Shown here: positions 17,001 to 41,663 of the stretch, piece by piece
How positions within the stretch are numbered: position 1 is the stretch's first letter
How the letters are laid out: each line of letters starts with the position of its first letter
Assembly: GCA_014526335.1 (NCBI GenBank)
Contig: JACTAT010000029.1
Coordinates: 1,231,372 to 1,295,371, forward strand
Direction of reading: 5' to 3'
Source: Chrysaora quinquecirrha
Lineage: Eukaryota > Cnidaria > Scyphozoa > Semaeostomeae > Pelagiidae
DNA: 64,000 nt
Notes under the pieces: generated by a model
Database searches by the model: none
The model's input: the letters and a program-made list of their open reading frames with translations, nothing else
What the model was told of the DNA's origin: nothing
Position numbers and translations under genes: made by a program

Positions 17001-17957
17001 TTAATATTATGGCCTCATATGCTTTATAATAGCCTTTAGAAGATAAACAATGGTCTATTTATGCCTTAAAGGTGTTATTTGTCGCATTATGAGCATTTGG
17101 GAAACCCTCGATATTGGGCAATTTTTGGTCATTTTGCCTTAGTATAGCTATGCCTTTTTGCTGAAAAGTAGGCGTTTTTATAGGGCTTGTTTTCTTTAAT
17201 AGTATGGCTTCATATGCTTTATTATAGCCTCAAGAAGCCAACAAATGGTCTATTTATGCCTTAAAGGTGTTATTTGTCGGATTATAAGCATTTGGGAAAC
17301 CCTCGATTTTCGGCAATTTTTTGCCCATTTGCCTTAGTATATCCTTGCCTTTTTCCCAAAAATAGATGTTTATATAGGGCTTTTGTTCTTTAATATTATG
17401 GTCTCATATGCTTTATTAAAGCCTCTAGAAGCCAAAAAGGGTTTATTAATGCCATAAAGGTGGTTTTTGTGACATTATGAGCATTTGGGAAACCCTCAAT
17501 TAGGGGCAACTTTTGGCCATTTTGCCTTAGTATAGCCTTGCCTTTTTGTCCAAAAATTGGCGTTTTTATAGGGCTTGTTTTCTTTAATAGTATCGCTTCA
17601 TAAGCTTTATTATAGCCTCAAAAAGCCAAAAAATGGTCTATTTATGCTTTAAAGGTGTTTATTGTCGGATTATGAGCATTTGGGAAACCCTCGATTTTCT
17701 GCAATTTTTGGCCCATTTGCCCTATTATATCCTTGCCTTTTTCCCAAAAATAGGTGTTTATATAGGGCTTTTTTTCTTTAATATTATGGTCTCATATGCT
17801 TTATTATAGCCTTTAGAAGATAAACAATGGTCTACTTATGCCTTAAAGGTGTTATTTGTCGCATTATGAGCATTTGGGAAACCCTCGATATTGGGCAATT
17901 TTTGGCCATTTTGCCTTAGTATAGCCTTGCCTTTTTGCTCAAAAGTAGGCGTTTTTA

Positions 17958-18740
17958 TAGATCTTTTTTTCTTTAATAGTATGGCTTCATATGCTTTATT
18001 ATAGCCTCAAGAATCCAAAAAATGTTCTATTTATGCTTGAAAGGTGTTTATTGTCGGATTATGAGCATTTGTGAAACCCTCGATTTTTGGCAATTTTTGG
18101 CCATTTTGCCTTAGTATAGCTATGCCTTTTCGCTCAAAAGTGGGCGTTTTTATAGGGCTTTTTTTCTTTAATATTATGGCTTCATATGCTCTATTATGGC
18201 CTCAAGAAGCCAAAAATGGTCTTTTTTTGGCTTAAAGGTGTTATTTGTCGCATTATGAGCATTTGGGAAACCCTCGATATTGGGCAATTTTTGGCCATTT
18301 TGCCTTAGTATAGCCTTGCCTTTTTGCTCAAAAGTAGGCGTTTTTATAGATCTTTTTTTCTTTAATATTATGGTCTCATATGCTTTATTACAGCCTCAAG
18401 AATCCAAAAAATGGTCTATTTATGCTTTATAGGTGTTTATTGTCGGATAATGAGCATTTGGGAAACCCTCGATTTTGGGCAATTTTTGGCAATTTTGCCT
18501 TAGTATAGCTATGCCTTTTCGCTCAAAAGTAGGCGTTTTTATAGGGCTTTTTTTCTTTAATATTATGGCTTCATATGCTCTATTATGGCCTCAAGAAGCC
18601 AAAAATGGTCTTTTTTTGGCTTAAAGGTGTTATTTGTCGCATTATGAGCATTTGGGAAACCCTCGATATTGGGCAATTTTTGGCCATTTTGCCTTAGTAT
18701 AGCCTTGCCTTTTTGCTCAAAAGTAGGCGTTTTTATAGAT
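17958..18740. repeat. ~389-bp higher-order repeat block in the satellite
   Basis: The variant tttttatagatctttttttc recurs at ~17958, ~18347 and ~18737, that is every ~389 bp, or two 194-bp monomers. The intervening monomer is of the gctatgccttttcgctc type. This is a dimeric higher-order repeat independent of the 350-bp block. Confidence 0.75.
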
Positions 18741-21608
18741 CTTTTTTTCTTTAATATTATGGTCTCATATGCTTTATTACAGCCTCAAGAATCCAAAAAA
18801 TGGTCTATTTATGCTTGAAAGGTGTTTATTATCGCATTATGAGCATTTGGGAATCTCTCGATATTGGGCAATTTTTGGCCATTTTGCCTTAGTATAGCTA
18901 TGACTTTTTGCTCAAAAGTAGGCGTTTTTATAGGGCTTTTTTTCTTTAATATTATGGCTTCATATGCTCTATTATGGCCTCAAGAAGCCAAAAAATGGTC
19001 TTTTTTTGGCTTAAAGGTGTTATTTGTCGCATTATGAGCATTTAGGAAACCCTCAATTGTGGGCAACTTTTGGCCATTTTGCCTAAGTATAGCCTCGCTT
19101 TTGTGCCCAAAAATTGGCGTTTTTATAGGGCTTGTTTTCCTTAATAGTATGGCTTCATAAGGTTTATTATAGCCTCAAGAAGCCAAAAAAATGGTCTATT
19201 TATGCCTTAAAAGTGTTATTTGTTGGATTATGAGCATTTAGGAAACCCTCAATTGTGGGCAACTTTTGGCCATTTTGCCTTAGTATAGCCTTGCTTTTTT
19301 GCCCAAAAATTGGCGTTTTTGTAGGGCTTGTTTTCTTTAATAGTATGGCTTCATAAGCTTTATTATCGCCTCAAGAAGCCAACAAATGGTCTATTTATGC
19401 CTTAAAGGTGTTATTTGTCGGATTATAAGCATTTGGGAAACCCTCGATTTTCGGCAAATTTTGGCCCATTTGCCTTAGTATATCCTTGCCTTTTTCCCAA
19501 AAATAGGTGTTTATATAGGGCTTTTTTTCTTTAATATTATGGTCTCATGTGCTTTATTATAGCCTTTAGAAGATAAACAATGGTCTATTTATGCCTTAAA
19601 GGTGTTATTTGTCGCATTATGAGCATTTGGGAAACCCTCGATGTTGGGCAATTTTTGGCCATTTTGCCTTAGTATAGCTATGCCTTTTTGCTCAAAAGTA
19701 GGCGTTTTTAAGGCTTTTTTTCTTTAATAGTATGGCTTCATATGCTTTATTATAGCCTCAAGGAGCCAAAAAATGGTCTATTTATGCCTTTAAGGTGCTT
19801 ATTGTCGCATTATGAGCATTTTGGAAACCCTCGATTTTGGGCAATTTTTGGCCATTTTGCCTTAGTATAGCTATGCCTTTTTGCTCAAAAGTGGGCGTTT
19901 TTATAGGGCTTTTTTCTTTAATAGTATGGCTTTATATGCTCTATTATGGCCTAAAGAAGCCAAAAAATGGTCTATTTCTGCCTTAAAGGTGTTATTTGTC
20001 GGAATATTAGCATTTGGGAAACCCTCGATTATCGGCAACTTTTGGCCCATTTGCCCTAGTATATCCTTGCCTTTTTTCCCAAAAATAGGTGTTTATATAG
20101 GGCTTTTTTTCATTAATATAATGTTCTCATATGGTTTATTATAGCCTCTAGAAGATAGACAATGGTCTATTTATGCCTTAAAGGTGTTATTTGTTGGATT
20201 ATGAGCATTTAGGAAACCCTCAATTGTGGGCAACTTTTTGCCATTTTGCCTTAGTATAGCCTTGCTTTTTTGCCCAAAAATTGGCGTTTTTATAGGGCTT
20301 GTTTTCTTTAATAGTATGCCTTCATAAGCTTTATTATAGCCTCAAGAAGCCAACAAATGGTCTATTTATGCCTTAAAGGTGTTATTTGTCGGATTATAAG
20401 CCTTTTGGAAACCCTCGATTTTCGGCAATTTTTGGCCATTTTGCCTGAATATGGGTGATTTTGAGGTTTTCTCTTCAGTTTTATGGCCTCAGATGCTTTA
20501 TTGTAACCTCTAGAAGCCAAAAATGGTCTATTTATGCCTTGAAGATGGTTTTTGTGTGATTATGAGCATTTGGGAGACCCTCATTTTTCGGCAATTTTTA
20601 GCCCATTTGCCCTAGTATATCCTTGCCTTTATTCCCAAAAATAGGTGTTTATTTAGGGCTTTTTTTCTTTAATATTATGGCCTCATATGCTTTATTATAG
20701 CCTCTAAAAGATAAACAATGGTCTATTTATGGCTTAAAGGTGGTTTTTGTGACATTATGAGCATTTGGGAAACCCTCGATTTTGGGAAATATTTGGCCAT
20801 TTTGCCTTAGTATAGCCTTGCCTTTTTGCCCAAAAATAGGTGTTGTTATAGGGCTTTTTTTCTTTAATATTATTGCCTCAGATGCTTTGGTATAGCCTCT
20901 AAAAGCCAAGAAATGGTCTTTTTATGCCTTAAAGGTGTTATTTGTTGGATTATGAGCATTTAGGAAACCCTCAATTGTGGGCAACTTTTGGCCATTTTGC
21001 CTAAGTATAGCCTTGCTTTTGTGCCCCAAAATTGGCGTTTTTATAGGGCTTGTTTTCTTTAATAGTATGGCTTCATAAGCTTTATTATAGCCTCAAGAAG
21101 CCAACAAATGGTCTATTTATGCCTTAAAGGTGTTATTTGTTGCATTATGAGCATTTGGGAAACCCTCAATATTGGGCAATTTTTGTCCATTTTGCCTTAG
21201 TATAGCCTTGCATTTTTTCCCAAAAATAGGTGTTTTATAGGGCTTTTTTCTTTAATATTATGACCTCGTATGCTTTAGTATAGCCTCTAGAAGCCAAAAA
21301 ATGGTCTTTTTATGCCTTGAAGGTGTTATTTCATGGATTATGAGCATTTTGGAAACCCTCAATTTTGGGCAATTTGTGGTCATTTTGCCTTAGTAAAGCG
21401 CTGCCTTTTTGCCCAAAAGAAGGTGTTTTAATAGGTATTTTTTCTTTAATATTTTTTCTCAGATGCTTTATTATAGCCTCTAGAAGCCAAAAAATTTTCT
21501 ATTTGTGCCTTAAAGTTGCTATTTGTGCGTTTATGCGCATTTGGGAAACTTTCGATTTTTGGGCGATATTTGGCCATTTTGCCATAGAATAGCCTTGCCT
21601 TCTTTTCT

Positions 21609-24217: not shown

Positions 24218-24497
24218 ATGCCAGTTAACTCCGTCCTTGAAAATGAGATTCGTCGCTATTCTGACAGCCAAAAGGTATCAAACGTAGAAGATGCCAAAAG
24301 AAAGGTCGTCCCAGTCGTTGAAGATGTTGTCAGACGTATCTTTGAGAAGGATCGAAGGTTTGCGATGACAGTTGAATTCAGAGGAAGTATATATGAGAAC
24401 CTGAAAATAAAGAGCGCAGATGAATTCGATTTTGATTTGCCAATAACTCAGCTTGCAATTGACGAGATTCCATCAAGATATCCTTCGGGTTCTGAAG
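24218..24497 (+). CDS. cGAS-like gene exon 1 (N-terminus, GS and first catalytic motif)
   Basis: Encodes residues 1-93 from the ATG at 24218. An upstream in-frame stop makes this start likely. An N-terminal helical segment is followed by the nucleotidyltransferase signature: GS at residues 56-57 and ADEFDFDL with E69 and D71, the first two acidic metal ligands of the cGAS/Mab-21 family. The chosen donor is gaag|gtttgc, phase 1, which joins G|AA of exon 2. An alternative donor at 24489 (tcgg|gttctg) is also phase 1 and would drop three residues. With the chosen donor, the distance from the catalytic motif to the next conserved helix (~40 residues) matches Mab-21 proteins, so no exon seems to be missing. 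Confidence 0.8.
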
Positions 24498-25560
24498 GTT
24501 TGCTTTTGTTTTCTATGTTTAAACTGTCACGATATCCTGATCAATTAACCTCTTTATTTTGGAACTAAGTTGGAAATACTTGAAAGTAGCCACTGTTACT
24601 GCACTGAGCTTGATTTATGTTGTGATTCAATGTTAGGAGCAGCTCTTAGAAGAATTATGTCTGAAGTCTAAACGATAAAACTCATACTCTTCAAACTCTA
24701 TACTCAACTAGCTAAGTATTACAACTAACAAGATAATAAATTAAATTTAATTGAAAGAGTCCTTCTGCTCAACAGAACAATGAATATATGCTTAAAACTT
24801 CAAAATACATAAAAGTGAGGGGCTGATTCACGACGATCTCGAGTTGTTAGAAAATTTGCTTAACACATGGGACATCTTTAATGTAGGCTGCTACGTAGCT
24901 ATGTGCCCCAAATGCAGCTGAAAAATTTTGGAACTACGTACGGAAACAGAAGTTGTTTGCCGTCCCTTTAAGAGGCAGTGGAGAGAACAATTATTATTAT
25001 TTTGGCTTTCGCTTTGCAGAAAAATTCTGCTTTCAGTCTGCGGGCACGTACCTAGCAAATTACAAGACAGGAATGCTTTTCTGCATTATAGAATATGCAG
25101 TAGAATAGCAGTAAAATATGCAGTTATACTTGAACGAAATCCTTGGGTAGGAGGCATATCCGCACTGTCTTTTTAATTTTTTGAAAATCTTTATATCAGT
25201 GTTTACACTGAGATATCGGTGGTTCAATTTGAGCGGATTTACAAAACACTTCCCTTCTGAAACGTCAATACTTGAGGTAAGCTGATTTCGACACAATAAC
25301 TCATAACTTTTCATTCGATGAAAATCTCGAATATCAGTCCCCCCCTTTCACAATGCATAATTTAAGCCCACCCCAAGGTAGTGGGTGTAGTGTGCTTCTT
25401 ATTTTCTCGATGTTTTCAAGTTTGAAAAACATGGGACATTTCTAAAAAATCTTTCTTGAGATAATTAACGGTTTGCTCACAGGAGCATTGTTCATCAATC
25501 TTTCCAAGGCATTTGATACGTTAGGCCATGATTGACTTCTTAAAAAGCACAAGTTATATG

Positions 25561-26140
25561 CCTTATCGGCCCTTTTTACGCCGGCCCTAAATGGCGTTAA
25601 TTTTAGCCTAAAGGCGTTATAAGGGCCGGTGTTAAAAGGGCCGGCGTTAAAAGGGCCAAAAATTTGGAATTTTTCTCAAAAAACGGCGTTAATTTCCAAG
25701 CACCTATTTTTGCTACCACGCACTATATTTTAGGAATTTTCATAAACAGCATGAAAACAAAGCCATCTTAGCAGAAATTGAAACTTTCATCAATAATCAA
25801 GTTCAAAAGATGGCAGAGAAATTGATAGCAGGGGAAACTAGGGAAGAATATGAAGATTAAATAGACGAAGATGCAATCGAAGTGAAGTTCGATGATGAAG
25901 AAAACGTAGATAGCAGTGAGACAATTGTAACTGACCAACATGAATTATATTCAAGGTAATAAAAAGTAATAAAAGACGCGACAGTGTGTAAAAATATATT
26001 GTTGTTTTTTCCTTGTTCTTCGAGTGGCGTAAAACACGGCCCTAAATGGCGTTAAAGCACATTTTAAGGCCGGCGGAATTAGGGCCGGCGTAAAAACGGC
26101 CGGCGTTAAATTAGGGCCGGCGTAAAAAGGGCCGATAAGG
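25561..26140. mobile_element. 580-bp TIR DNA transposon nested in the LINE
   Basis: Perfect 30-bp terminal inverted repeats (ccttatcggcc... / ...ggccgataagg), followed inward by further ggcgttaa/ggccggcg motifs in both orientations. It splits the LINE text tatatg|gtatcaaag (codons KLYGIK). TG on both sides (25559-25560, 26141-26142) suggests a 2-bp target duplication. 25741-25959 is the relic of a coding C-terminus with an acidic tail, interrupted by one TAA at 25858, so this is a deletion derivative of a transposase-bearing element. The superfamily was not identified. Confidence 0.85.
25741..25959 (+). pseudogene. Transposase C-terminus relic
   Basis: A frame of ~73 codons inside the 580-bp element, reading KQHENKAILAEIETF... 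then an acidic DDEENVDSSET tail and a stop, with one internal TAA after EEYED. The acidic end just before the terminal repeat is typical of a transposase C-terminus. No catalytic residues remain. Confidence 0.5.
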
Positions 26141-27119
26141 TGGTATCAAAGTTCTGACATTCATCTGGGTTCCTCATTACCCTTTGAAAGGGTTTTAAAA
26201 TGTTCGCAAATCATTTAACAAGGCCAGGAACTGTCAGCCCTGTTTTCATTGGTTTGTTGTGTTCCCTAGGGTTCTATCGCTTGGTATGTCCTCTTAAACT
26301 ATTTAAAAATGAATTATGAATTTTAGGATTGTCTTTGCCATAGCAAAGTGCTTCAGTTTGCTGATGACTCTGTAATTTAATTGTCTTTAAAATGTGGATC
26401 TTTAATCAAAGCTAGACCTCTCTAAACGCTCTATGATTCCTAATTACCTGAAACCAACGATCTTAATAGAGGCAAAACAGAAAATATCCTATTTGGTACC
26501 TGCAAACGAATCTCAACCTCTTACAAACACTATCTGCTGTTGTCCTTGACCACCACCATGGACTGAGCGAAAGTATAAGACCACTTCATCAAGGCTTGGT
26601 GTGTTACATAGCAGCCCTAGGAAGATCAGACCGACCTCTAGAAAGAGCAGCTTTTAGGTTTGATTTAATGTGATATTTAGTATTTAAGATATTGATATTT
26701 GATATAATTATTTCTGTAAATTATTATACGTTTTTATGTTCGAAGAATTTCGAGCATATTGGTGTGGGGTGGCCTGTCACTAACTAACTAACTAACTAAC
26801 TCACTGACTAACCAACGCTTGAACAATGGAAAACGTGTAACAATAGTATAAGCATCTCAAGAATACCCTTAGAGCCATTGTGTCGGCAATTGATGCGCAA
26901 TTAGCGGTTGGTTTTTCACAATGGCGGCCTGCAAACGGCTTTGTCAATCTTAGGTCATGTGACAATTGTTCTGACTCGTAATAGTTCACTTGTATGAGTC
27001 ATTGTTGTTTATTTTATAAACGATGGCAAATTGCCACATTGGTTTCGTTAATGACATTTAAAACATTCTCATCATCGATTATAGAGTCTGGGCAAGAGCG
27101 GCAATTTCAAAACACTTTT

Positions 27120-27340
27120 CAAAGCAAATCGACATCATATTCATCATCATCATCAGCATCATAATCATCATGATTACCATCTTTGATGATGTGGCCGTGG
27201 CAAGATCTAAAGGAACGCCACCACCACCACAAGCACCCCTACAACCATCACCACGACCACCCCTATCACCACCACCACAACCACCCCTACAACCATTACC
27301 ACGACCACCCTTATGTTGTGAGACAGGAAGTTCCCCAGTA
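27120..27340. repeat. CAT/CAC-rich simple-sequence tract
   Basis: Impure (atc)n followed by (cca)n / caaccacccctaccac runs. The His-, Pro- or Gly-rich frames across it are composition artefacts. Confidence 0.85.
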
Positions 27341-27413
27341 GCATTAAACACGCCAATTACGTAATGGATTCTTTAAGTTAATTACATCATCTTATTTTTA
27401 GTAAGATTTCTGC

Positions 27414-27698
27414 TGATGGTGCAATACCCCGCATTGCACCATATGATGTAATATTTTTTGTGTTTTCTTGTGTGTATAAATGTGAGTCCTTTGTAATTTT
27501 AGTTACTGTCTTGTCGTTATTCTTGCTGTATCACTCAAGTTCTGTCGCTATTTTCGCCGTTGAAGTTTTGTCGTTTTGTTAGTCGTTATATTATAAGCCG
27601 TTATATAAGTCGTAAAGTCGAGTCGTATAGCCGAGAATAATTGAAGTCGAATCAGAAGTGTTTGAAATATTTGTGTTTTATTTTGTTGCGAACTCACA
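27414..27698 (+). mobile_element. Possible solo LTR
   Basis: A 285-bp segment beginning TG and ending CA. It has a terminal hairpin ggtgcaat...attgcacc (~27419-27441), a TATA-like tataaatg at ~27475 and near-matching 5-bp flanks (tctgc / tctgt). It lies between two CAC-rich tracts. No internal retroviral-type genes are present. The call rests on form alone. Confidence 0.3.
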
Positions 27699-27719
27699 TC
27701 TGTAAAGGTCCCTTGCAAG

Positions 27720-28280
27720 TACCTTTACACTTATCACCACGACCGGCCCCCCATCACCACCACCACAACCATCACCACAATCACTCCTATCACAACCACC
27801 ACAACCACCCCTACCTTCAGCACCACAACCACCTCTACCACCACCATCACACCCTCCCTTCCACCACAATCACCCCCTATCAACCAGCATCATGGTCATC
27901 GATGTCATCAACATCATCATCATAACCACCACCATTATCATAATAATCATTATCGTCATCGTTGTGCATACCGATAAATATTTTTCATCATTTGAGCGAC
28001 ATAGCTATATTCAACCAGAGTGGTTCTTCGAACATGCCCATAGGTCCCCTATGTTTTTAAAAGGAACACTTCATAAGGGATTCGAGGCTGAAAATTCCCA
28101 AAAAATTAAGGAACTTTAAGGAACACCACAACCACCTCTACCGCCACCATCACACCCACCCTACCACCACAATCACCCCCTATCAACCAGCATCATGGTC
28201 ATCGATGTCATCAACATCATCATCATAACCACCACCATTATCATAATAATCATTATCGTCATCGTTGTGCATACCGATTT
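27720..28280. repeat. CAC/CAT simple sequence with ~300-bp direct duplication
   Basis: The stretch 27824-27976 (aaccacctctaccaccacc ... gttgtgcataccgat) is repeated at 28126-28278, ~302 bp away, with few changes. A linked motif, aaggaacac..ataagggattcgaggc, recurs at ~28060 and ~28325. Confidence 0.85.
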
Positions 28281-28354
28281 TTATAAGGAACACCTTTATA
28301 AGGAACATAGGGCCCCTATGTTTTATAAGGAACACCTTTATAAGGGATTCGAGG

Positions 28355-28487
28355 CGAGGGGCAATTCACTCCTCAAAAAGGTGTACGAGATTTTTATGAA
28401 AACAAAAGGATTTCCAAGGGATTTCTGTGAAAACAATAGGTTTTCTAGCAAAGGTGTACGAGATTTCAAGGAGTGAATCGCCCTCGG
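28355..28487. mobile_element. ~130-bp MITE, copy 1
   Basis: Imperfect inverted ends: cgaggggcaattcactcct at the left, and aggagtgaatcgccctcgg at the right. The interior repeats ggtgtacgagattt. A second copy is at 36855-36972. No coding capacity. Confidence 0.75.
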
Positions 28488-28589
28488 AATAAACAATAAA
28501 TAATATTTACTATGAATAATAAATAAATATTTAGAAAAGGCTTGGCTTTTCAAAATTGTAACGAAAATGAACAAAAAATCGTAAAGACA

Positions 28590-29115
28590 ACGCTCAAGAC
28601 TCTGTGGTCAAACTAGGAGCAAAAAGGGTGTGGTTATCTCATCCATAAACGTCAATATTCTCTTATTACACTTGGATGAGATTAAGTGTCTTGTTAAGGA
28701 AAAAGGAATTCACATCCTTGCACTTAATGAAACAAAAATTGACAAGGATATCTCCGATAGCGTACTAAAAATTGAAGGATATAACTTTGAGAGGCTTGAC
28801 CGTAACTGAAATGAGGGAGTTGTCGCAATTTTTTGCAGGAATACATTTGAGTGCTCTAAGCTTAACGATAATCCAATTTCGACCTTGGAAATGGTTTGTG
28901 TGGAAATAAATCCTCCTAAAGCCAAACCCTACCTTTTACTTTCTTGGTACAGACCACCGTCTGATACTATAGAAACATTCGAAAACCTAGAACGTGTTCT
29001 GAGGTTTCTTGAATCCGAGGACAAAGAAATTATACTCCTTGGGGATACAAACTGTGATTTCGGTAACAAGATACTTGAGCCCTCCAATGATAATAAACCG
29101 AATTATATTAATCGG

Positions 29116-29161
<46 letters not shown>

Positions 29162-29800
29162 ACTTTTTTGGGTTAACGCAGCTGATAAGAGAACCTACCA
29201 GAGAGACTATTGACACATCCACTATAATCAATCACATAGCTGTTAATGATGAATGTAACATCATCGAGTCTGGTGTACTCAAATTGGCACTCAGTGATCA
29301 CTATTTGATTTATGCCATTCGAAAATTCCACGGAAATATACGATGTAATCGTAAAATTATGATGTAAACTCGGGAAAAGAAAAACTTCAAGGAAATGCCC
29401 TTTCTAAATGAGCTAGCAAACATCGATTGGCAGCAGATTCTAACTTGCAGCCAAGACATTAATTCCGTTGTGCAATATTGAACCAACATGATCTCTTTAT
29501 TAATTGAGAAACATGAACCTCTTAGAGAACGTAGGGTATCTGATAAATTTACACCTTGGCTAACCGCAGACATAAAGAATATGTTCAGAACGCATGACAG
29601 GCTGAAAGCAGCAGCCATTAACTCTAAATCCATTTTCCAGAAAAATGTCCCGCCCGACACAGATCTCTTTGAAAAGGTCTATTGTAAATTAACTTTCTTA
29701 AATAGGATATTTCGTCTCACGGATAGTTTGTTAATAAAAAATTATTCTGAAATTGTTATTCCGACGATATTTTCTCACAGAAAGCGCCTTTGAACAAGCT
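28590..29800 (+). mobile_element. Decayed CR1/L2-type LINE fragment (endonuclease part)
   Basis: The endonuclease-exonuclease-phosphatase domain is readable in one frame: LALNETKID, then LLSWYRPPSD, LLGDTNCDF, REPTR and LSDHYLIYA, with one stop near 28807. A linker typical of these ORF2 proteins follows (PLRERRVSDKFTPWLTADIK, 29520-29580), after stops and frameshifts. A (ta)n run at 29119-29158 has expanded inside the domain. Truncated before the reverse transcriptase, so inactive. It is a separate insertion from the RT fragment at 25440. Confidence 0.85.
29119..29158. repeat. (TA)n microsatellite
   Basis: About 20 uninterrupted TA units inside the LINE endonuclease relic, likely length-polymorphic. 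Confidence 0.95.
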
Positions 29801-29866
29801 TAGCATCGGCATTATCTCATATTTTTGCGTATTTTCTACAACGCTATATTTGCATCTTGTCAACAG

Positions 29867-30026
29867 AATACACTGAATACTTTTTGGAATCTAAAGATCG
29901 TGACAGCTGGGGTAACTTAGCGGACGAAAACAACAGACTGTCAGCTGAAAGGGTCGTCCAGACCTTTGCGAATCTGGTCAAAGAAGTTGTTGATGATATG
30001 AATCGGGAAAACCAGCCTTCTTTTAA
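29867..30026 (+). CDS. cGAS-like gene exon 2
   Basis: Acceptor tgcatcttgtcaacag|aata and donor tttaa|gtaagc. Encodes residues 94-147: a strand-like segment EYTEYFLESKDRDSW, then a helix NNRLSAERVVQTFANLVKEV. This corresponds to the spine helix after the catalytic strand in Mab-21/cGAS proteins (the LSARKIRSRFQ position in Mab-21). The phase-1 entry fits exon 1, and the phase-2 exit (AA|G) makes Lys147 with exon 3. It lies just downstream of the LINE endonuclease relic, but the splice sites and fold position assign it to this gene. Confidence 0.82.
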
Positions 30027-31242
30027 GTAAGCACACTTTTTGCCTGCTTTTATTGACCCATTGGTATTGTAAATATTGTTAGAGAATCTTTTCAAATCCT
30101 GTGTTATGTACAGGCGTTAGCTTCAAGCCGGAAAATTACAGATAGAACCGCCTAGTATATGACTTGGTTTACAAGGGACCAGTCCCTAAATGGATCTTAT
30201 TCCGAAGAAGAAAAGATAGGATTCCCGTCTTGCGGGTCTTTGGTTGTTGAAAACAGTAAAAAGTGTTCACATTTGGAAACAATCTCAACACATGGCTGGA
30301 AAACAAACGATCCCATTCTGAGCTGCTCGGCAAGACCCCCCGTAATAGCTAACTAGGATATTACTTTGATAAGACCATTAAGACAGGTTAAAATCAGTAG
30401 CAACGAGACTCGAAAATTTGACACGATATTGATACAAAGATTCAAAACATTTTATGCCAGTGCCGTGAATCATTACTTGGGAGTTGTGGTCATGATATAA
30501 TATAATAATGTTCAAGTATTTTTGGATTGATAAGTTTCGCTTAAAATAATTTTTCAAAAAACTCTAAATGTTCTCCATCCATGCAGTATTTCAAGAAACT
30601 ATAGTGCGCATTGAAGATTAATGTCTATGCTCAACCAAGAAATATTACACATTGTATGTGAATTATGTTGATAAATTTTGTATTTGAATAGAATTCGCCT
30701 TCTTTACCGTGGTTTCAGACATTAAAGCTTTTAATCCTACAGAAAGGGAAAGGATGCTCACAATCTACTATCATTCCGCTACATCTTCTTCCACTTTATT
30801 GAATTGTGTGTGTGTGCCGAATTGTTTTCAAAAGATACCTATAAATTTTCAGTGAACTATTTGTGCTCTTACATGAAATTACATTTTCTTACATGGATCA
30901 AGATCATTTTGTTTGGCTGACTTTTATTCTTTGCATTTTAAGGAATGGTCACATTGATAATTGTTATAATGTTAATATTATGATAAATAAAAATGATAAC
31001 ATTCATAAAGCATTTAGTACAATCAGTTGAAGAAAGTGTTGTCAACTTCCAGTGTTTTTTTATGTCCTCGCCTTAAAGATGAATTTGAATAATGCGAAGC
31101 AACTGGAAAATAAGGTTCCCTACTGATTCTTCAAAAGATTCAAAATCATTATCATTCCCAACCATAAGTCGTATTTACCAAATCGCTGTCATATGTCCAG
31201 TTTTGTTAAGTTTCGAAAGCCACTAATTCGAGCCCCTACTCA

Positions 31243-31500
31243 GGTGTTGTGGCCGAGTGGTTAAGGCGTTCGGCTCACGATCATGAGGTCGTGCGTTCGA
31301 TTATCGTCGGGACCACTTTCCACAAGCCTACAGTCAACTCAGCTGTCCATCCTTCCGAGGTCGGTAAATGAGTACCCAGGGTATCCGTTCTAGAATATCA
31401 GTTTGGGGGCACAAGCTGCAGGTCCACATCAGCTGCATAGCTGCCAGAATCCCCGACCTGCTATAACAAATAAATATTGCTTGCTTGCTTGCTTGCTTGA
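31243..31500 (+). mobile_element. tRNA-derived SINE
   Basis: The head (31243-31314) resembles a Leu/Ser-type tRNA, with box A tggccgagtggttaagg and box B-like gcgttcgattatc. A tRNA-unrelated body follows, containing ccgaggtcggtaaatgag and gtaccc. It ends in a (ttgc)n tail at 31478-31499. It has no proper acceptor stem, so it is not a functional tRNA gene. Confidence 0.8.
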
Positions 31501-31874
31501 GTACCGAATAATCGTTCCCCCTCCCGCTGGTTAATTTTTGAAAAATTTTCCAACCCCCGCTCCTATTCCAACCCCCTTTTATTAGCTGAACAAAATTTGG
31601 TAAATGAATATTCTAAAATTTGATTAAAATAAGTTTTTCTTTGCTGTCCCACGAGTTAACTGAGTATGTAATACGTATTTTTTATCGCTACATTGCAAAA
31701 TAGCTTTCGTTTGCTATCGTACGACACCGTACGAACATTATAGTTTCTGCTATGCCAAAGCAATTAGTTTTATATTTTCAAACCCCCCGTTTATTCCAAC
31801 CCCCCCTGTTTATTAAATTTTAACAATATGTCAAACCCCCACGTTTATTCTCACCCCCCTTGATTACTCGGTAC
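31501..31874. mobile_element. Short TIR element (MITE-like)
   Basis: The ends gtaccgaataatc and gattactcggtac are inverted repeats with one mismatch. The interior near each end has repeated tattccaaccccc motifs (31550-31580, 31780-31860). It abuts the SINE tail. No coding frame. Confidence 0.65.
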
Positions 31875-32043
31875 TTCAGAGTAGTCACAAAATTTTGTTA
31901 CAAGCAGGTCTTTGAGGAAAAATTGTCCTGGAACTTGAAGATCAGCAACGACGCTGAAAGGTAGAACGATGGGAATATATATATAGTATACTGTCAAAAG
32001 AATTTACAATTTATATTCATATAATCAAACAATTTACTCTTAG

Positions 32044-32192
32044 GTTTCGATGTGGCACAAATCATCCAGCAGTCACAATTCAGTTCCAAAAGAATGGCAA
32101 AACAGTTTATGATGTTGACCTTGCACCAGTCATCGAAGTGAGACAATGGCCTGAATCGCGTACAAGTGGCTGGGAGACGCGTAGAAGGCACG
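32044..32192 (+). CDS. cGAS-like gene exon 3 (third catalytic Asp)
   Basis: Acceptor tttactcttag|gttt and donor gcacg|gtaagt. Encodes residues 147-197. HPAVTIQF and VYDVDLAPV align with PAVTLLI and SVDITLAL of vertebrate cGAS, which makes Asp170 the third catalytic acid. The following WPESRTSGWETRR matches the post-catalytic segment of the family (cf. SSWP). Phase 1 at the end, completing Gly197 with exon 4. Confidence 0.88.
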
Positions 32193-33314
32193 GTAAGTAT
32201 TGTGATGAATACTCCCGATGTATTCTTGGAGGTTCTTTTGATAGTCTTAATTTGAAGCAGACTCGATAACACAGAAAACTCGTTTATATCCAGTAGCCGT
32301 ATTTCATGTTCTCAATGACTCTACAGTACTCAATTATGATCACAGCTCTATCATAATTCTAACCGAATTCTGACTCAAAATCACTTTTACAACATAGATA
32401 TGCGTTTAATCCGGAATACAATTTTTATAAAACTAGCCAATAAGAATTAAGAAAAACAAGTATGAACATATATCTACGCACATGTATTTGTTATTCTTTC
32501 CATAGAGAGATTTCCGATCTAGACTTATGCACGGAAAAGTTACTCATAACTTGCGTAAACGAGAAATAGGAATATAATTTTAAGTTCCTTGTAGAGAATA
32601 ATTCTAAGTATTATAAAGCTTAACTTTACGACTTTATAAAAGAGTGAAATAATATAAATGTAATAATGATAATCAAGCAAAAAAGCACCTTCCCCGACAA
32701 GTATAAAAGAGCATGAAAATTAATTGACTTTTGAAACTTTACCGACCTATTTTTGTTCTCTGGCTTATCGAGCGGGACGAAGCTGTGAGTGTTTGAGATG
32801 TGCGCGCTTAATCTCTTGAAGTCTCCGGAAAACTACACTGAAAACAATAAGGCCAAATGCGCATCTATATGCAAGCTCCAATCAAAATCCTCACATACAG
32901 GCCTTCTGCTATATTCTTTTTTGAAAATAGAAAATAATATAGTATAGTAAGTTTAGATTTTAGCTGGACAACCAAAATTTTGTCCCTTTTAATCCTATAT
33001 TTCTAGCAATTGAGAACTCTTTGAATAGCTAAAAGCTTTTTATTAATTATCGTCCCTTACTGTGGCTTTAGCTATAAAACAAATCCACAGCATTATAAAA
33101 ATATGAACATTCGATGAGGCAAACCTGCTTACACAGTTTGCCATTTTTTTAGAGTATGTAATATAAAGTAGAAGATTTCAAAATGTTTTTCAAAAGTCGC
33201 TGCTCTAAGAACTAGTAGGACTCGTTAGAACAGGAAAACATACTTTTGCTGTCTACATCGTCGCAATATTCTCAATTCTTTCTTTAACTTTATATCTTGC
33301 GTTATTTTCGACAG
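32193..33314 (+). other. Intron 3
   Basis: 1.1 kb of AT-rich sequence. No repeat or gene was recognised. Confidence 0.7.
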
Positions 33315-33845
33315 GTTGGCCCAGTGACGCTCTTATTAATGAAATAAAGAAAGGTTCAGTTTATCTCGTTTCAAAGCTACCTAAAGGTGAAAAATATGAT
33401 GGGCGTAACAATTATCTATGGCGTCTTGCATTCAACAAAGCAGAGAAGACTTTGTTCAAGGACCCCGACACGCAAGTCGAAAACTCACGCAAAAGACCAG
33501 TGCTTCGAATTCTGAAAGGGCTTCGAATGGACTTAGATTGGCCAGGTCTCAGATCATATCATATAAAAACCGTTCTTCTGCACGAGTTTGAGTCTCGGAA
33601 ACCAAGTGACTGGGCATTTTCAGAGATGACAGCACGTGTCATTGATGCAGTGAGTCGCTTGGGAGATTACCTCAGCACATCACCACCGTACTGCCAACAC
33701 TATTTCTTGACTGGCATAAATATTTTCAAAGGAATGAATCAAAGTTCTCTTAATACACTAAGGAGAAAGATTGATACTTTTCTTCGCAATCCTCTTGAAG
33801 CTTTGAACAAAATACAACACCCTTCTGGCTATGTACCACCTAAAG
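33315..33845 (+). CDS. cGAS-like gene exon 4 (Mab-21 C-terminal half)
   Basis: Acceptor ttattttcgacag|gttgg and donor cctaaag|gtgagg. Encodes residues 197-374. Family landmarks in order: GWPSDALINEIKKG, VYLVSKLPKG, WRLAFNKAEK, RPVLRILKGLR, SYHIKTVLLHE, SDWAFSEM, then CQHYFLTGINIF and LRRKIDTFLRNPLEAL. These match the helical C-lobe of Mab-21/cGAS proteins (cf. YHMKT, HYFLP, LTNP). Between WRLAFNKAEK and the LRILKGLR helix, where vertebrate cGAS inserts its zinc ribbon, there is no Cys/His cluster. If the donor is not used, the frame runs on ~27 codons to a TAA at 33929-33931, giving a form without the ubiquitin-like domain. Confidence 0.92.
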
Positions 33846-34565
33846 GTGAGGGCATACTTTTTAGTGTTTTCAAGTACTTGCAAAAACATTTAGGTCTACT
33901 GAGGCAAAACTTCACTTCAGTGGTTGATTAAATTGTTGCATAGAGACGATCTTACTGTATGGCCAAGACGGCAAGGCGCGAAGTCACGGTACGGTACCAG
34001 GAGTCATTGTTTGAAAGCTTGCCTTGCCCTTTTTATAGCGTGAAACATTCTATTACTACAGAGTTGAACAAGTGAAAAGCAAAATTTAAAGGAGTGATTA
34101 TTTATTTATGCTAGTACTAATACTGAAATCAACGCGTTCGATTACACTATTGTAATCAATACTCATTCTCATATCGTTCTCAATACTTATACAAAGCTTT
34201 CTATTCATATTTCCTTGTCTCATTGTTCTTGGAAAGCGCAGAGGGTAGTGATCACTTTTTACAAGGATGTGTGCAAATGGTGGGGGCTATTCAGAATATG
34301 GATTCACTTTAAATTTTGCAACCAAAAATGTTGTTGTCATGAGTTATCCTCTATCAAAAACACGAATGGCATTTTCTATTGAAAGATGGAGGAGAAGGAT
34401 GCCAATCTTGTCATATTGACCGGGAGGATGGGCAAAATGGAGTATCTATATGAAGGGCACTCCAAAAATGTAAATCGACCCCTTAGGAGAGAGCAGTTCA
34501 TTTTGAATAAATAGGTCGTGTCGAATTTCATTAATTTAATATACCAAAGGCGACGGAAAAGTGAC

Positions 34566-35190
34566 AGGCTATCTTTAAAACCTGGAATCTGGAATCTGGA
34601 AACTGGAAAATGGAATCTAGAAAACATGGAATCTTTAAAACATGGAATCTAGAAAACATGGAATCTTTCATGGAATAGAAAACATGGAATCTTTAAAACA
34701 TGGAATCTAGAAAACATGGAATCTAGAAAACATGGAATCTTTAAAACATGGAATCTAGAAAACATGGAATCTTTAAAACATGGAATCTAGAAAACATGGA
34801 ATCTTTAATCTCGTAATATGAGATGCTCGTAATCTGATATAGTGTTCGTCTAGATTACGTTAAAGCAAACCTGACCAACTCAAAATAGACCATCATCAGA
34901 CTATCAAAACTCAAAACAGAATTCAGTCGGTTTTTCTATACAAAAGACCTATTAAGAAACATCCAGGCCTTCTGTACTAATTTACCGATATTGAATGTCT
35001 CAAAAATCTATTGAAATCCTTTTGACATCGGATTCTCCAAATCTAGATCAGCAGGTCACACGATTTCGATTTTTAAACAACTATTGAAATTTGATAAGGC
35101 AATTTGAAAATTGAAATAATGATTTTGGTAATTATTGATTACTGTTATTCAAACATGAGGAGGAAGATTATGGTCAGCTATTTGTCTTTG
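34566..35190 (+). repeat. Foldback left arm
   Basis: The minisatellite (34566-34806) plus the unique part (34807-35190) pair in inverted orientation with 37560-38271. The arm stops abruptly at ~35190 (gctatttgtctttg) compared with the longer right arm. Confidence 0.88.
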
Positions 35191-36365
35191 TCTATGACAC
35201 CACCACGAGGCATTCTGAATATTTGTGCACAGAGAAGCCTTTTTATGTTTGAAGAATTCAAACATTATGCAGGGGTTTTCGTCGGAAGAAATAGACCTAG
35301 ATAGATAGGATAGATAGATACCTAGATACCTAGGAATCAGGAATGTAACAATAAGATCGGAATTTCTATTCTCTATGTAGGAATTTCTATTCTCTATGTG
35401 CACAATTCGTTTCATTGAACCACTGAGTTCCCTATTGTTCTGCCTCTGTACTCAGCCTCATAAACGAATTTAATGAATGACTCCCGCCCTGCTGTACCTA
35501 GAAACCCGTTTCTTTTTTGAACGAAGCCTTTTATGCCCAAAATGCAAGCCGTATTATTCTATGTTTTGGTCCTGCAATGTGGTCAAAATTTTGATTTTCT
35601 CTTGATTTTGAAATTGCGGACATATATTGTTTGTTGAACTCAACCAAGTTCTACCAAAGTTGTTTACCACTCAATTACAAGCCACTTGCGTAAAAGCAAT
35701 ATGTCTATGTATCTCTAAAAGCTGGAACAAAGAATGAAGTCAGGAACGATCTGGAACGAACGATCTGGAAACAGTGGTTTTCGGCGGAACGTGCGAGAAC
35801 GGAGGGGAATAAGTGCGAACACGCACAAGGAAACATGTAGATAAAGCGGGAATCAGTGGCAATTATTGCTAACAGGAGAAAACAACGATGGTTAGGCGGC
35901 TAGGGAACAATGTCGGATCTGATAGAAATCAGATTTGTGTGCCGATGGGGTACAGCTGGATTTGGATTCAGTTAGAATCAGGTTAAAAATGCGAGGACAG
36001 GGCCGAAATTTGTTGCAACTCTATTCTGTTCATTGCAATCTCCTAGGCGTGATCTCATTCTTCAAACATGGCTAATGGGTACCTTTAATCTCTGACTTCC
36101 CTTGTGTCACAGAAATGGTGGTGTCAGTTTACAGATGTTTTGCTAGTTGTTAAGGTGTATACAATGTTCATCACGTGTACTTTATCTAAATTTTTGAATT
36201 GAAATGGCTTCACATAGTTCTTAGTTGCTAAGAAAAATTAAATTCAAATTAAAGTTATATAACCGTCCTTGATTGTTCAGTTCTTATTTTAATTGCTGTG
36301 TTGAATAAAAAAAGGGTTCTTTATTCCTTTATTCAGTTGTGTATCTGCTCAGTCCAATTCAACGC
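35191..36365. mobile_element. ~1.2-kb insertion interrupting the Foldback left arm
   Basis: Absent from the right arm. It includes a dispersed repeat at 35250-35405 (gtttgaagaattcaaac, gcaggggttttcg, gata units, ggaatttctattctct) whose inverted relative is at 60370-60545. It also holds a purine-rich degenerate stretch, ggaacga..atctgg, at ~35740-35900. Boundaries are approximate. Confidence 0.5.
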
Positions 36366-36366
36366 A

Positions 36367-36480
36367 ACATGTTATGGGGTGTTCTACATCCACGGCCCCG
36401 GCCCTCAGGGCCCTCATTTTGAGCCCCAGGGCCCTCAGGGCCCCTATATTTTAGTGATATTTCACGTACCCTGGGTACCA
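36367..36480 (+). repeat. Inner Foldback arm segment with GGGCCC palindromes, left
   Basis: ggggtgttc... followed by dense gggccctca / gagggcccc motifs and tttagtgatatttcacgt. Inverted counterpart at 37439-37556. It continues the arm after the 1.2-kb interruption. Confidence 0.85.
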
Positions 36481-36854
36481 GACTTTCAATTTCAAGAAAA
36501 TGATCTACACAAAGATTGCTTTATTTTTGGTTTTATAGAGATGTCTTCGTTTTACAGATTTTGGCCATTTTTCTTTAAAGCGAAGACATTGACTTTAGTC
36601 ATCACCGCGGTTTATTCTATTTTTGATTGTTGTCTTGATCGTTGATCAGTTTCGTAAAAGCGTATTGCATTGTATTCGATTTGGATATTGTCTTCGGTCT
36701 TCGGTCTTCGTTTTGTTGTTCTTCGTTCTTCGGTTTTCGTTTTGTAGACTCCCGGAACCCTACCGTAAATTGTATTGATTTAATGGAAATTCATTAGAAA
36801 TCCTTTTTTCAACAGGAATCTTGTAGCTACGCTTTTTTAAACAGTTAAATTCCC

Positions 36855-36972
36855 CCGAGGGGCATTTCACTCTGCAAAGAGGAAAACAAAAGGACTTTCA
36901 AGGGACTTCCGAGAAAACAATAGGACTTCCAGCAAAGGAGTACGAGACTTTCAAGGAGTGAATTGCTCCTCG
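36855..36972. mobile_element. ~120-bp MITE, copy 2
   Basis: Ends ccgaggggcatttcact and agtgaattgctcctcg. The interior, aacaaaaggactttcaag and caataggacttcc, matches copy 1 at 28355-28487. It lies in the core of the Foldback-like element. Confidence 0.75.
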
Positions 36973-37438
36973 AATTCCCCTCTTTGAATATGTATCACCG
37001 ATTCCTAATTATTTTGATACAGAGATGTTGTTGTTCTAAAAGTTTCTTATAGTATATGAGTGGCTACAATCATCGCTAGCAATATTGGGGACACTACTGT
37101 ATGTTGTAAGTATGTTTTACCTTGAAAATCCGGTCTCATTATAACATATTTAGGTAATTAGAACCCCCCGACTCAATGTTGGGACCACTGGCAACATCAA
37201 TTTCACTAACATTGAATTGGGGGGGGGGATGCGTCTTAGAGCGAGAATTTTGAAAAAATTCGAAGTGTCCCAACATTTTTTGCGAGGATTGTAGACACAT
37301 TGTAGATCAAGGTTTCTTATAAACATTTTCTCATAAAAAAATGAACTTTGATGCGAATTCTAGGAGTATAAAATGGCCTTTCTGCTCGGTTTCACCATAA
37401 AAACGTCTACTTTTCTTTGTTTTAGCGAAATTTGGAGA

Positions 37439-38271
37439 CCTTGACGTGAAATGTCACTAAAAAATATAGGGGGCCCCGAGGGCCCCGGGGGCTCCAAAAT
37501 GAGGGCCCCGAGGGCCGGGCCCGTGGTTATCGAACACCCCATGTTATGTAAGTCAACTCTTACCAAAGACAAATAGTTGACCATAATCTTCCCTACATGT
37601 TTGAATAACAGTAATCAATAATTACCAAAAACATTATTTCAATTTTCAAATTGCCTTATCAAATTTCAATACTTGTTTAAAAGTCGAAATCGTGTGACCT
37701 GCTGATCTAGATTTGGAGAATCCGATGTCAAAAGGATTTCAGCAGATTTTTGAGACATTCAATATCGGTAAATTAGTACAGAAGGCCTGGATGTTTCTTA
37801 ATAGGTCTTTTGTATAGAAAAACCGACTGAATTCTGTTTTGAGTTTTGATAGTCTGATGATGGTCTGTTTTGAGTTGGTCAGGTTTGCTTTAACGTAATC
37901 TAGACGAACACTATATCAGATTACAAGCATCTCATATTACGAGATTATAGATTCCATGTTTTCTAGATTCCATGTTTTAAAGATTCCATGTTTTCTAGAT
38001 TCCATGTTTTAAAGATTCCATGTTTTCTAATTCCATGTTTTAAAGATTCCATGTTTTCTAGATTCCATGTTTTAAAGATTCCATGTTTTCTAGATTCCAT
38101 GTTTTAAAGATTCCATGTTTTCTAGATTCCATGTTTTAAAGATTCCATGTTTTCTAGATTCCATGTTTTAAAGATTCCATGTTTTCTAGATTCCATGTTT
38201 TAAAGATTCCATGTTTTCTAGATTCCATTTTCCAGTTTCCAGATTCCAGATTCCAGGTTTTAAAGATAGCC
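37439..38271 (-). repeat. Foldback right arm (intact)
   Basis: Continuous arm: GGGCCC-rich inner part (37439-37556), unique part (37557-37950), minisatellite (37951-38230) and gattcca end. The reverse complement aligns with the interrupted left arm. Confidence 0.88.
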
Positions 38272-38615
38272 AAAAGTGACATTGACTTGGATGAAGTTGA
38301 TGTTGCATCAAACTTAATTGAAAGTGAAATTGTTTTTTTTAATGAAATTAAATGGAATTATATGTTAAATTATTCTAATGTTAGATGAAAAATGATGTCA
38401 GGTGGCATAAGATTCGAACAAAATGCCACAATATAAAGCGAAGATGCATTTATGTCAAACTTGTGAAATGAGTTAGGCAAATCCTGATGCACTTTATTCA
38501 TGTGCACCACTTAATAAAATTGACACTTCACTCGGGTGATTTAGCGACCAAAGTAAAAGAGAAAAGTTCATTTTATGTATTTTCTGATAAATAACGCTAA
38601 AAAATCAATTTTCAG

Positions 38616-38720
38616 ATTTTCAGATCTTTCTCAAAGATACAGATGGGAGGTCATTTACATTATCCGTAAATAGTGAATTGAAAATTTCGCAGCTGATTAA
38701 TAAAGTAGCTGAAATGAAAG
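38616..38720 (+). CDS. cGAS-like gene exon 5 (ubiquitin-like domain, first half)
   Basis: Acceptor caattttcag|attttc and donor atgaaag|gtatgt. Phase 1 on both sides. With the G of exon 4 it starts Asp374, then FQIFLKDTDGRSFTLSV, aligning without gaps to MQIFVKTLTGKTITLEV of ubiquitin, then a helix ISQLINKVAEMKG. Ubiquitin-equivalent lysines present are K6 (K380) and K29 (K403). K11, K27 and K33 are replaced. An alternative AG eight bases downstream would give the wrong frame. Confidence 0.9.
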
Positions 38721-40615
38721 GTATGTCCTAATTTATTTTGGCTTTTCTTGCTATTGAGCGACATCTTGAATTTACACACACGTAAAAATAGCTATTTCGG
38801 TAAAAACAAACATTTTGCAAAGCAGAACGACAGAATGAAACTAAGCTTAAAATCATGTTTAGAAATTCTAATCAAAGAAAAAACATTTACACGTATTCGT
38901 GACTTATAGATATAAACATGGTACATATATATATATGTGTGTTAGGATTGAAACTTTCTTCATAATGGAAGAAAGAGTGCGAACCATCCATCAACCGTCC
39001 ACCTGTGGTCCACGCTTCGGGTGTTTACAGGAAAGGACGTGTTATGATCACAGGCCACCCAGCACCCAAGCACCCCAAAAGGGGCATCATCGCACATCGT
39101 GTAAATTAGGTGAGTCTCACTGAGGAGTAATAATTTGTATAACATAAGAATCTGGGACAATCTAAATGGTGTAAGGAAAAGTGTAATGATAATAGAGCTA
39201 GTTAGCGATTAGCTATGTAGAAAACATGAAGGGCGTCGGCCCCACTAGTAATGTGAGTGAGGAGAAAGTAAATCTGATAAAGTAAGCGAATAATTAACCG
39301 TGTAATAAGGTTATAAAGCCACAAAATGGCAAAATCCTGTATATTCTCGATGATATCAATTGAGAATGATTTTTGCAAAGGAAAAATGATACTACGGTAA
39401 TTTTGATGGCTTATTCAGCGTTTGTAAGCATACATTACATGCTTAGTCAAACTTTGCTGTATTGCTGATAAGGATAAGTGCAACTTGAAATCGAATCTGA
39501 GCTGGGAAACTGTAATGTAACTGGTGTTAGTAAAAGTGTATTGAGAATAGAGGTAGTTAGCGATTTGCTATGTGGGGAACGCTATGGTAATTTTGATAGT
39601 CTATTCCGGGTTTGCGTGCATACGTACACGGAAGTGTACACGGACGTGTACAAGAATACTGCGTTGTTTTCGAGAGTCAAAATTGAAGAAATGCCAGGAA
39701 ATGTTTGAGAGATTGTACAGTAACTCTTATGTATATGAATGAGGAAGGAACGTCAGCCTCCTATTGTGAGATAGGGTACTGCGTCAGTGTAATGAATTTA
39801 ATTTCTGTATGAAGTGATTTAAAGCTTTTAGGCCACGGTTGTTAGTATTGTGAATGTGAGGCAGAGCTGCTTTATGTTTTATGTCAATTGTTATTTTCGG
39901 TTTTTATTTAAGGTTTTTATTAACAAAATTGGGTTGAGAAGGACTCCAAAACGTGCAGCGAATTATCGTATCAGAGAGATTTTCTCGAAAGACGTTCAAA
40001 TCAATTCTATAAAATTTTGGGAAAAAGATAATTATGACCCGTTGTAAGATATTGACGAGAATAAATGATAAGTAAGAAAACTTGCGGAATCTCGATATCG
40101 ATTTCACTCGAATGAGGGAGTCACTCTTATGAAATTTTCAGAATTCCCTGTCAAAACATTGATGGCAACTGCAAAAATCCATATCTTTGGCTCTGTAAGG
40201 CCCTGGACAAATAAACTGAATATTTTGCTGAACATTGTCCATAATTGAAGTTCATTGAAAAATTCAAATCATTTGGCGACCTTGAACAAATTTTGTCCAG
40301 TGGTATGTTTAATTCTAAAGTGAACTGAAGAAACGCTGAGCAGTTACCCGACACATGCAGGCGCATGTTAATAATTGTATTTTCTCGAATAGCAATTTCT
40401 CTGGCTTTTATTTTTCAATTATATAATTTATAAAGTTTTTTGTCATTTTGGCACAGGATTTGTGCATATGTTCTTTATCAAACGAAAATAGAAGCCCCCC
40501 TAAGATAGAAGCCGCAAACAACGCATTAAGAAATACATTAATCATTGTCTTATTTCTGCCGTTTCAAGGACTCTTAAAAAAGTAACTTTCAAATCTTTGG
40601 AAAATTCATTTTCAG
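38721..40615 (+). other. Intron 5
   Basis: A 1.9-kb intron with degenerate direct repeats: 39140-39240 with 39390-39440, and 39510-39640, share agtgta..aatagagctagttagcgat and ggtaattttgat..ttcagcgtttg. Otherwise nothing recognised. Confidence 0.6.
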
Positions 40616-40699
40616 GAATATCAGCATCCCAGTTTCGACTCGTCTACAATGGCCGAAATCTTGATAGTGGAACCATTGGCTCAAACGGCATAAGAAAAG
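40616..40699 (+). CDS. cGAS-like gene exon 6 (ubiquitin-like domain, second half)
   Basis: Acceptor ttcattttcag|gaatat and donor agaaaag|gtactg. Phase 1-1. Encodes GISASQFRLVYNGRNLDSG... with the ubiquitin pattern GIPPDQQRLIFAGKQLEDG: V418 at the Ile44 position, R422 at Lys48 and K436 at Lys63. One residue shorter than ubiquitin in the 54-60 loop. Confidence 0.92.
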
Positions 40700-41613
40700 G
40701 TACTGACTTGAAAATTTTAAAGATTTATAGCATTTCCATTTTTATATTACAGACGTTACAGATGTTTCAAGTGGGTCCACAAAACTGCATTTTAGCCCAT
40801 ATAAATTCTCTCAACAAAACCGATTGAAAGTCGATAGGGTCTTTAAGGTGGAGGTCGTTGGACATGACGGTTTGCAGTTTCTCGACATTTTTGAGAGCGG
40901 TTATACGGTTTTTACCTTCAAAAAGTACGGCTTTACGGCTTTTCAAGTTGCGATTTCGGTGCGGTTTTACAGTTTTAAAAACATTGTATTCTTGTGCCGT
41001 TTATAGCTAAAAAATTGCGCGGTTTATCGGCCTTTTGACTCCCCCTATGAACCCCATTTAAGGACGGAAGATACAGTGAGAAGATCATGCAAGTCCTCAT
41101 TAATATTTGTTCAATGTCTATGTGTTGCTTCCAGAAGTGCCGGAATCTAAAAAATTGCACCTCATGAGCTAGGCTGGGCAGACTTTCTCATTATAAGACC
41201 ATGGTCAGGGAAAGAATTGGCAAATTACCCTTAGGGCGGGTGATGCAAGTTTTGCGTAAAGTTATTTATATTTTAACGCAACAAGAAAAGGAATTACAGG
41301 TGTTATGCTTTGATTTTAAGGCTGGTTTCCATGTCATCGCAAATGACGGGGACGCTCATCAAGTATATGATCATGTCTTCGCCGTGACGGTGATGTGAAT
41401 ATTCCCATATAATCGTAAGCGACGGGGAACATAGTTGATGATTACAGTGCGCAGCGATGAAATTTGATCAGCCTAAAAAAATTTTAGTTGTTCTATACCT
41501 GTAATCTCGATACCCAAATCACACCCTCTTACAAGCGGGATATCTCTCTTCATCACAGCAATATAAATTTTGTCATATTCAATCTCTTCCGGTGTATTAC
41601 TTTTCTTTTGCAG
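40700..41613 (+). other. Intron 6
   Basis: 0.9 kb with no repeat or gene recognised. Confidence 0.7.
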
Positions 41614-41663
41614 ATGCCATAGTACATTTATTTGGAAGACTGAGAGGTGGTTTTCCTATCTGA
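41614..41663 (+). CDS. cGAS-like gene exon 7 (LRGG tail and stop)
   Basis: Acceptor ttttcttttgcag|atgcc. Phase 1 entry completes Asp437, then AIVHLFGRLRGGFPI and TGA (41661-41663). This matches STLHLVLRLRGG, the end of ubiquitin, with a three-residue extension after the di-glycine, like the pro-peptide of ubiquitin and other modifiers that must be cleaved before conjugation. A 50-nt exon with this content at the right phase is strong support for the model. A possible poly(A) signal, attaaa, is at ~41726. Confidence 0.92.

Follow-up and report, generated by a model that had tools for sequence, protein, structure and literature searches.

A seven-exon gene in the window, the 64,000-nucleotide stretch of Chrysaora quinquecirrha DNA analyzed here, encodes a Mab-21-type nucleotidyltransferase followed by a C-terminal ubiquitin-like domain that ends in RLRGG. 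On its domains and catalytic residues, the window protein is a member of the cGAS-like receptor (cGLR, Mab-21) family. Two further proteins carry the same fusion, P0005 from the jellyfish Rhopilema esculentum and P0007 from JGI, and conservation of the ubiquitin-type tail suggests that the whole sensor may be attachable to other molecules as ubiquitin is. We put forward as possible, a little short of probable, that this active-looking cGLR is conjugated whole through the C terminus of its own ubiquitin-like domain.

The seven exons, all on the + strand and separated by six GT-AG introns, join in phase over 1359 bases into 452 codons plus a stop, as the first-pass annotation had proposed. Exon 1 (24218..24497; exon joining, alignments with relatives) supplies the start codon and the active-site residues GS (56-57), E69, and D71. 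Exon 2 (29867..30026; exon joining, tblastn by relatives) leads to exon 3 (32044..32192; exon joining, alignment), which holds the third catalytic aspartate, D172, and exon 4 (33315..33845; exon joining, Pfam) provides the remaining Mab-21 domain, the Mab-21_C lobe, a short linker, and a phase-1 donor. The ubiquitin-like domain starts in exon 5 (38616..38720; DFQIFLK...; Pfam, PDB sequence search, tblastn) and continues through exon 6 (40616..40699; tblastn, alignment), where ubiquitin Arg54 is deleted and TIGSNGI is encoded. Exon 7 (41614..41663; exon joining) specifies the domain end with RLRGG (residues 445-449), the FPI tail, and the stop codon. Junction phases are, in order, 1, 2, 1, 1, 1, and 1, every junction from exon 4 to exon 7 being of phase 1; phase 1 on both sides is common for a shuffled module. 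In tblastn searches at E 0.1, P0005 matched exons 1, 3, 4, and 6 and P0007 matched exons 2 to 6. The short exon 7 received no independent match by any relative at this threshold and is accepted because of its frame, its splice site, and the RLRGG common to P0005 and P0007. A hypothetical alternative end (33846..33931, + strand) would arise by reading through the exon 4 donor, which adds 28 residues and a stop and would yield a form without the ubiquitin-like domain. On the 3' side of exon 7, ATTAAA at 41726 is a possible poly(A) signal, and AATAAA does not occur ahead of 42245.

A whole-protein search returned six relatives and an alignment-based search eight, including the same six, with scoring limited to the 7996 candidates sharing most words. 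The ubiquitin domain is present in two of the eight: P0005, deposited as "cyclic GMP-AMP synthase-like receptor 1 isoform X1," and P0007, a fragment. P0008, identical to the start of P0007 over 139 residues, probably represents the N-terminal half of that protein but was kept as a separate entry. The domain is absent from the listings of P0001, P0002, P0003, P0004, and P0006, and rescanning P0001 and P0003 gave the same result. With five of eight relatives showing no such domain in entries that may be incomplete, the fusion appears not to be general in the family. P0003 ends just where the ubiquitin-like domain would begin and groups with P0007/P0008 (support 100/99). A search with the ubiquitin-like part alone gave 23 candidates, none at E 0.001; it missed P0005 and P0007 too and is therefore uninformative on how frequent the fusion is. 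Viral contigs scanned with P0005 contained no relative. The fusion is found in at least one other named species, R. esculentum, which excludes its absence from all related species. As the tree is poorly resolved, this amounts to recurrence of the fusion and at most to possible orthology.

The nucleotidyltransferase part has the domains and catalytic residues expected of the family. Pfam places the Mab-21 nucleotidyltransferase at residues 59-245 (2.6e-28) and Mab-21_C, the C-terminal lobe, at residues 256-350 (2.5e-16), both above the curated cut-offs. The nearest solved sequence in the PDB search is Sp-cGLR1 of the coral Stylophora pistillata (PDB 8gjy; 1.2e-49). The same protein ranked first when Foldseek was run with a structure model of P0005, so that the predicted fold is that of the Rhopilema protein and not of the window protein. 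This model was built from eight sequences (mean pLDDT, 74.5; pTM, 0.68), and the VIA-align rows listed cover its residues 14-360, so the ubiquitin-like part is barely assessed there. The cyclase motif is intact in the window protein (GS 56-57, E69, D71, D172), and the five catalytic columns are invariant in the 6/6 aligned sequences, P0006 being left out as it is without the first part. The first-pass annotation had recognized GS, E69, and D71 correctly but had taken D170 as the last member of the active site. Since D172 is invariant in 7/7 aligned sequences and column 170 is mixed (D in 3/7, N in 4/7), the third catalytic aspartate is D172.

The predicted C-terminal domain was likewise confirmed as ubiquitin-like. 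Pfam ubiquitin (PF00240) matches residues 377-447 at 8.3e-12 (45.1 bits against a cut-off of 25.4), and single-ubiquitin chains in the PDB match the window protein at about 1e-10 to 1e-9. The P0007 domain also scores above the cut-off (38.2 bits) and matches ISG15 too in the PDB sequence search. The P0005 domain falls just below 25.4 with 24.8 bits, although the other two fused domains can be aligned to it from end to end. Ubiquitin-type precursors carry GG followed by an extra tail that is later trimmed to GG. This sequence feature of a type 1 modifier, a C-terminal GG with a short trimmable tail, is present here as RLRGG-FPI-stop, in agreement with the di-glycine and three-residue tail first described, and the RLRGG motif recurs in 3/3 fused proteins.

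Conservation is unevenly distributed along this domain. The three fused domains share 37-42% identity outside the tail, with 18/71 identical columns outside the last five; the last five are RLRGG in all three, and no longer uninterrupted stretch of the domain is invariant. If the 23/76 invariant columns were placed at random, the chance that the last five would all be among them is 0.0018, a value that takes columns as independent and comes from three sequences. The residues after RLRGG are unrelated: FPI in the window protein (three residues), T in P0005 (one), and KQCVDSNLQ in P0007 (nine). The Ile44 face varies (Leu8 is T/P/F, Ile44 V/S/V, His68 H/V/Q, and Val70 F/M/Q), and none of the ubiquitin lysines 6, 11, 27, 29, 33, 48, and 63 is common to the three domains. 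Equivalents of Lys6, Lys29, and Lys63, noted earlier as retained chain lysines, read K/R/S, K/K/E, and K/H/K and are not kept together in P0005 and P0007; chain formation on conserved lysines was thus rejected as the purpose of the domain. Gln40, Arg72, Leu73, Arg74, Gly75, and Gly76 are common to all three. Arg72 is the residue that lets the E1 of ubiquitin distinguish ubiquitin from NEDD8. Against conjugation, ubiquitin Arg42 (R/Y/Q) and Leu71 (G/T/A) are not conserved across the fused domains. The invariance of the tail, set beside a varying Ile44 face and varying lysines, indicates that selection seems to hold the tail and not the usual binding face. As the longest invariant run, RLRGG favors a built-in modifier over a decaying leftover.

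The fused domains also share traits that are informative about their origin. Ubiquitin Arg54 is missing from all three, and the motif TIxSNGI is common to them. Overall identity is 31, 35, and 35 of 76 positions among the fused domains and 28, 25, and 28 of 75 positions to ubiquitin. The joint loss of Arg54 and the shared TIxSNGI were the main reasons to reject a recent ubiquitin capture, the domains being only somewhat closer to one another than to ubiquitin in overall identity. A 10-row tree gave little resolution and did not place the three fused proteins in one supported clade. On this tree the fusion label requires three changes, a count that 500/500 label shuffles matched or bettered (mean, 2.8). 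With such a tree, the question of one versus several origins is left to the shared deletion and motif.

These observations are compatible with a working scheme in which the nucleotidyltransferase would make a cyclic dinucleotide upon binding foreign nucleic acid, the probable ligand being double-stranded RNA or DNA. A deubiquitinase-type protease would cut off the short tail behind RLRGG, and host ubiquitin E1/E2/E3 enzymes would take the exposed GG and place the whole receptor on a target protein or membrane component, with Arg72 of the domain matching ubiquitin at the position on which E1 selection depends. Attachment might concentrate or prime the receptor, which the same kind of protease could later release. 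We advance with some reserve the further proposal that an animal cyclic-dinucleotide synthase acts here as a ubiquitin-like modifier in its own right: once trimming has exposed the GG, the host ubiquitin cascade would charge the entire enzyme and attach it to targets. Besides the changes at Arg42 and Leu71, the conjugation scheme is weakened by the small number of fused proteins (three, one of them a fragment), the P0005 score just under the Pfam cut-off, the basic character of the domain, its absence from the listings of five relatives, and the failure of the fused proteins to group in one supported clade.

Other explanations give the domain a role without covalent attachment. It could be neither cleaved nor conjugated and instead bind partners (e.g., a signaling kinase, a ligase, or another receptor) noncovalently, coupling sensing to recruitment. 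Vertebrate OASL, with a similar plan, is reported to require its ubiquitin-like domains for antiviral activity and RIG-I CARD binding (PMC4446440), and outside the tail the domain has changed with little constraint among the three fused proteins (37-42% identity, as given above). We consider such a scaffold somewhat unlikely, as the usual binding face (Leu8, Ile44, His68, Val70) varies and the GG tail, dispensable for binding of this kind, is fully conserved. Alternatively, the domain could bind nucleic acid and give the sensor extra RNA affinity or specificity. All three domains are basic (pI of 9.98, 10.20, and 9.21 versus 6.56 for ubiquitin, charge being the only property computed), R-x-R-GG is conserved, and the C-terminal ubiquitin-like domain of SF3A1, which ends in RGGRKK, is reported to bind U1 snRNA stem-loop 4 (PMC12203917). 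Nevertheless, the residues beyond GG vary, with a lysine there in P0007 only, and no lysine at the examined ubiquitin positions is common to all three domains, which makes this explanation improbable.

An autoinhibitory or stability module, covering the cyclase or steering turnover without specific conjugation, appears more doubtful still. The isoform X1 label of the Rhopilema entry, the end of P0003 (a close associate of the fused P0007/P0008) at the point where the domain would begin, and the open read-through end of exon 4 indicate that the receptor may exist both with the domain and without it. However, the inter-domain linker of the P0005 model is predicted at low confidence and gives no sign of fixed docking, and P0003 could derive from another gene or have an incomplete record. 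That two adjacent genes were wrongly joined, the first a cGLR with exon 4 as its last exon and the second a small gene for a ubiquitin-like protein, is scarcely credible, and this reading was rejected. A 4.8-kb intron does separate exons 4 and 5, and a stop is reached by read-through after exon 4, but P0005 and P0007 carry the same fusion with the same junction, and two further fused proteins make a chance joining in the window very unlikely. Furthermore, the codon split by exons 4 and 5 specifies Asp, the residue before the domain in all three fused proteins, and ATG-led fragments of intron 4 that could be spliced in phase to exon 5 show no excess (10, versus 20 on the other strand).

Comparison with known systems places a conjugated receptor between several precedents. 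Metazoan cGLRs such as Sp-cGLR1, which is reported to be activated by dsRNA and to produce 3'3'-cUA (PMC9980059), share the Mab-21 fold and catalytic residues with the window protein, and the added ubiquitin-like domain sets the latter apart. In the cGLR survey, 87% of cGLRs are described as being without added domains, TPR, ankyrin, or repeated cGLR units occur in some, and an "Other" category takes in the rare architectures (PMC9980059). Vertebrate OASL resembles the window protein in joining a nucleotidyltransferase of the same superfamily to C-terminal ubiquitin-like domain(s) within an antiviral sensor family. It is nonetheless of the OAS type with two such domains, whereas the window protein belongs to the Mab-21 family with one and is not classed as an OASL. 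The catalytic triad of human OASL is reported as incomplete (PMC4446440), duck and ostrich OASL as active (PMC6307210). The lower-metazoan OAS proteins examined in the latter source are described there as lacking ubiquitin-like domains, so the OASL and cGLR fusions probably arose separately.

In type II CBASS, Cap2 is reported to conjugate cGAS-like cyclases via a C-terminal Gly or Ala and Cap3 to release them, conjugation raising cGAMP output and defense; the bacterial cyclase has neither a beta-grasp fold nor GG, as the authors remark (PMC10097602). A Bacillus cyclase is reported to be conjugated to the phage shock protein PspA (PMC11153139). Conjugation of a cGAS-like cyclase by its own C terminus, reversible and demonstrated in CBASS, is a likeness that is only possible for the window protein. 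Where CBASS employs a dedicated Cap2, the window protein has a ubiquitin-like domain with GG that would call on host enzymes, with no dedicated E1-E2 implied, and its gene, split by six introns, is not a bacterial operon of the type II CBASS kind. Precursors of the ubiquitin/ISG15 type share the beta-grasp domain, RLRGG, and a short variable tail, but the window modifier has a cargo permanently fused at its N terminus and does not conserve the Ile44 face or the lysines. SF3A1 is also an RNA-related protein with a C-terminal ubiquitin-like domain and an RGG tail; it differs in its basic post-GG tail, in place of FPI, and in having no cyclase.

The claim of the first-pass annotation that no animal receptor of this architecture had been described is not supported as worded. 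The Rhopilema protein is in a public database, and the architecture is thus already on record, although no description of a cGLR/Mab-21 protein with a ubiquitin-like domain was found in the titles and abstract openings of the literature matches listed. The word "ubiquitin" has no occurrence in the main text of the cGLR survey PMC9980059 or in that of PMC10732462; "ubiquitin-like" and "UBL" have none in the main text of PMC10855445. In PMC12424679, "ubiquitin" occurs one time, within the reference list.

To conclude, joining through the C terminus can control bacterial cGAS-like enzymes, and in vertebrate OASL an OAS sensor is equipped with ubiquitin-like domains; a cGLR whose conserved tail looks ready for conjugation would link both. 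Should the synthase itself be the modifier, it would represent an independently evolved functional counterpart of CBASS cyclase conjugation, and control by conjugation would be a recurring solution among cGAS-like enzymes. If the tail is not conjugated, the protein would still be a parallel to OASL, probably an independent one, in an early animal lineage.

Exon 5 of the cGAS-like gene, which encodes the first part of the ubiquitin-like domain, is preceded by two tandem splice acceptors placed 8 bases apart (38608-38623, where ATTTTCAG is repeated), and only the upstream acceptor of this pair keeps the reading frame into the exon. Further upstream, intron 4 holds two arrays of one 16-base unit, at 34577-34804 (AAAACATGGAATCTAG) and 37945-38267 (TAGATTCCATGTTTTC), which run in opposite orientations. 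In intron 1, open frames at 28585-29793, judged by eye only, suggest pieces of a LINE-type retrotransposon.

Repeats also occur outside the gene. Long satellite-like arrays with a unit of ~195 bases, alternatively read as 350 and 389 bases, occupy positions 1-5326 and 10248-21601, and their plus strand is strongly T-rich. An array of ~33 copies of the 23-base unit TGTTTTGTTTTTCACTTACATTT lies at 7649-8469, and a 301-base unit is present in two copies with 85% matches at 46508-47109.
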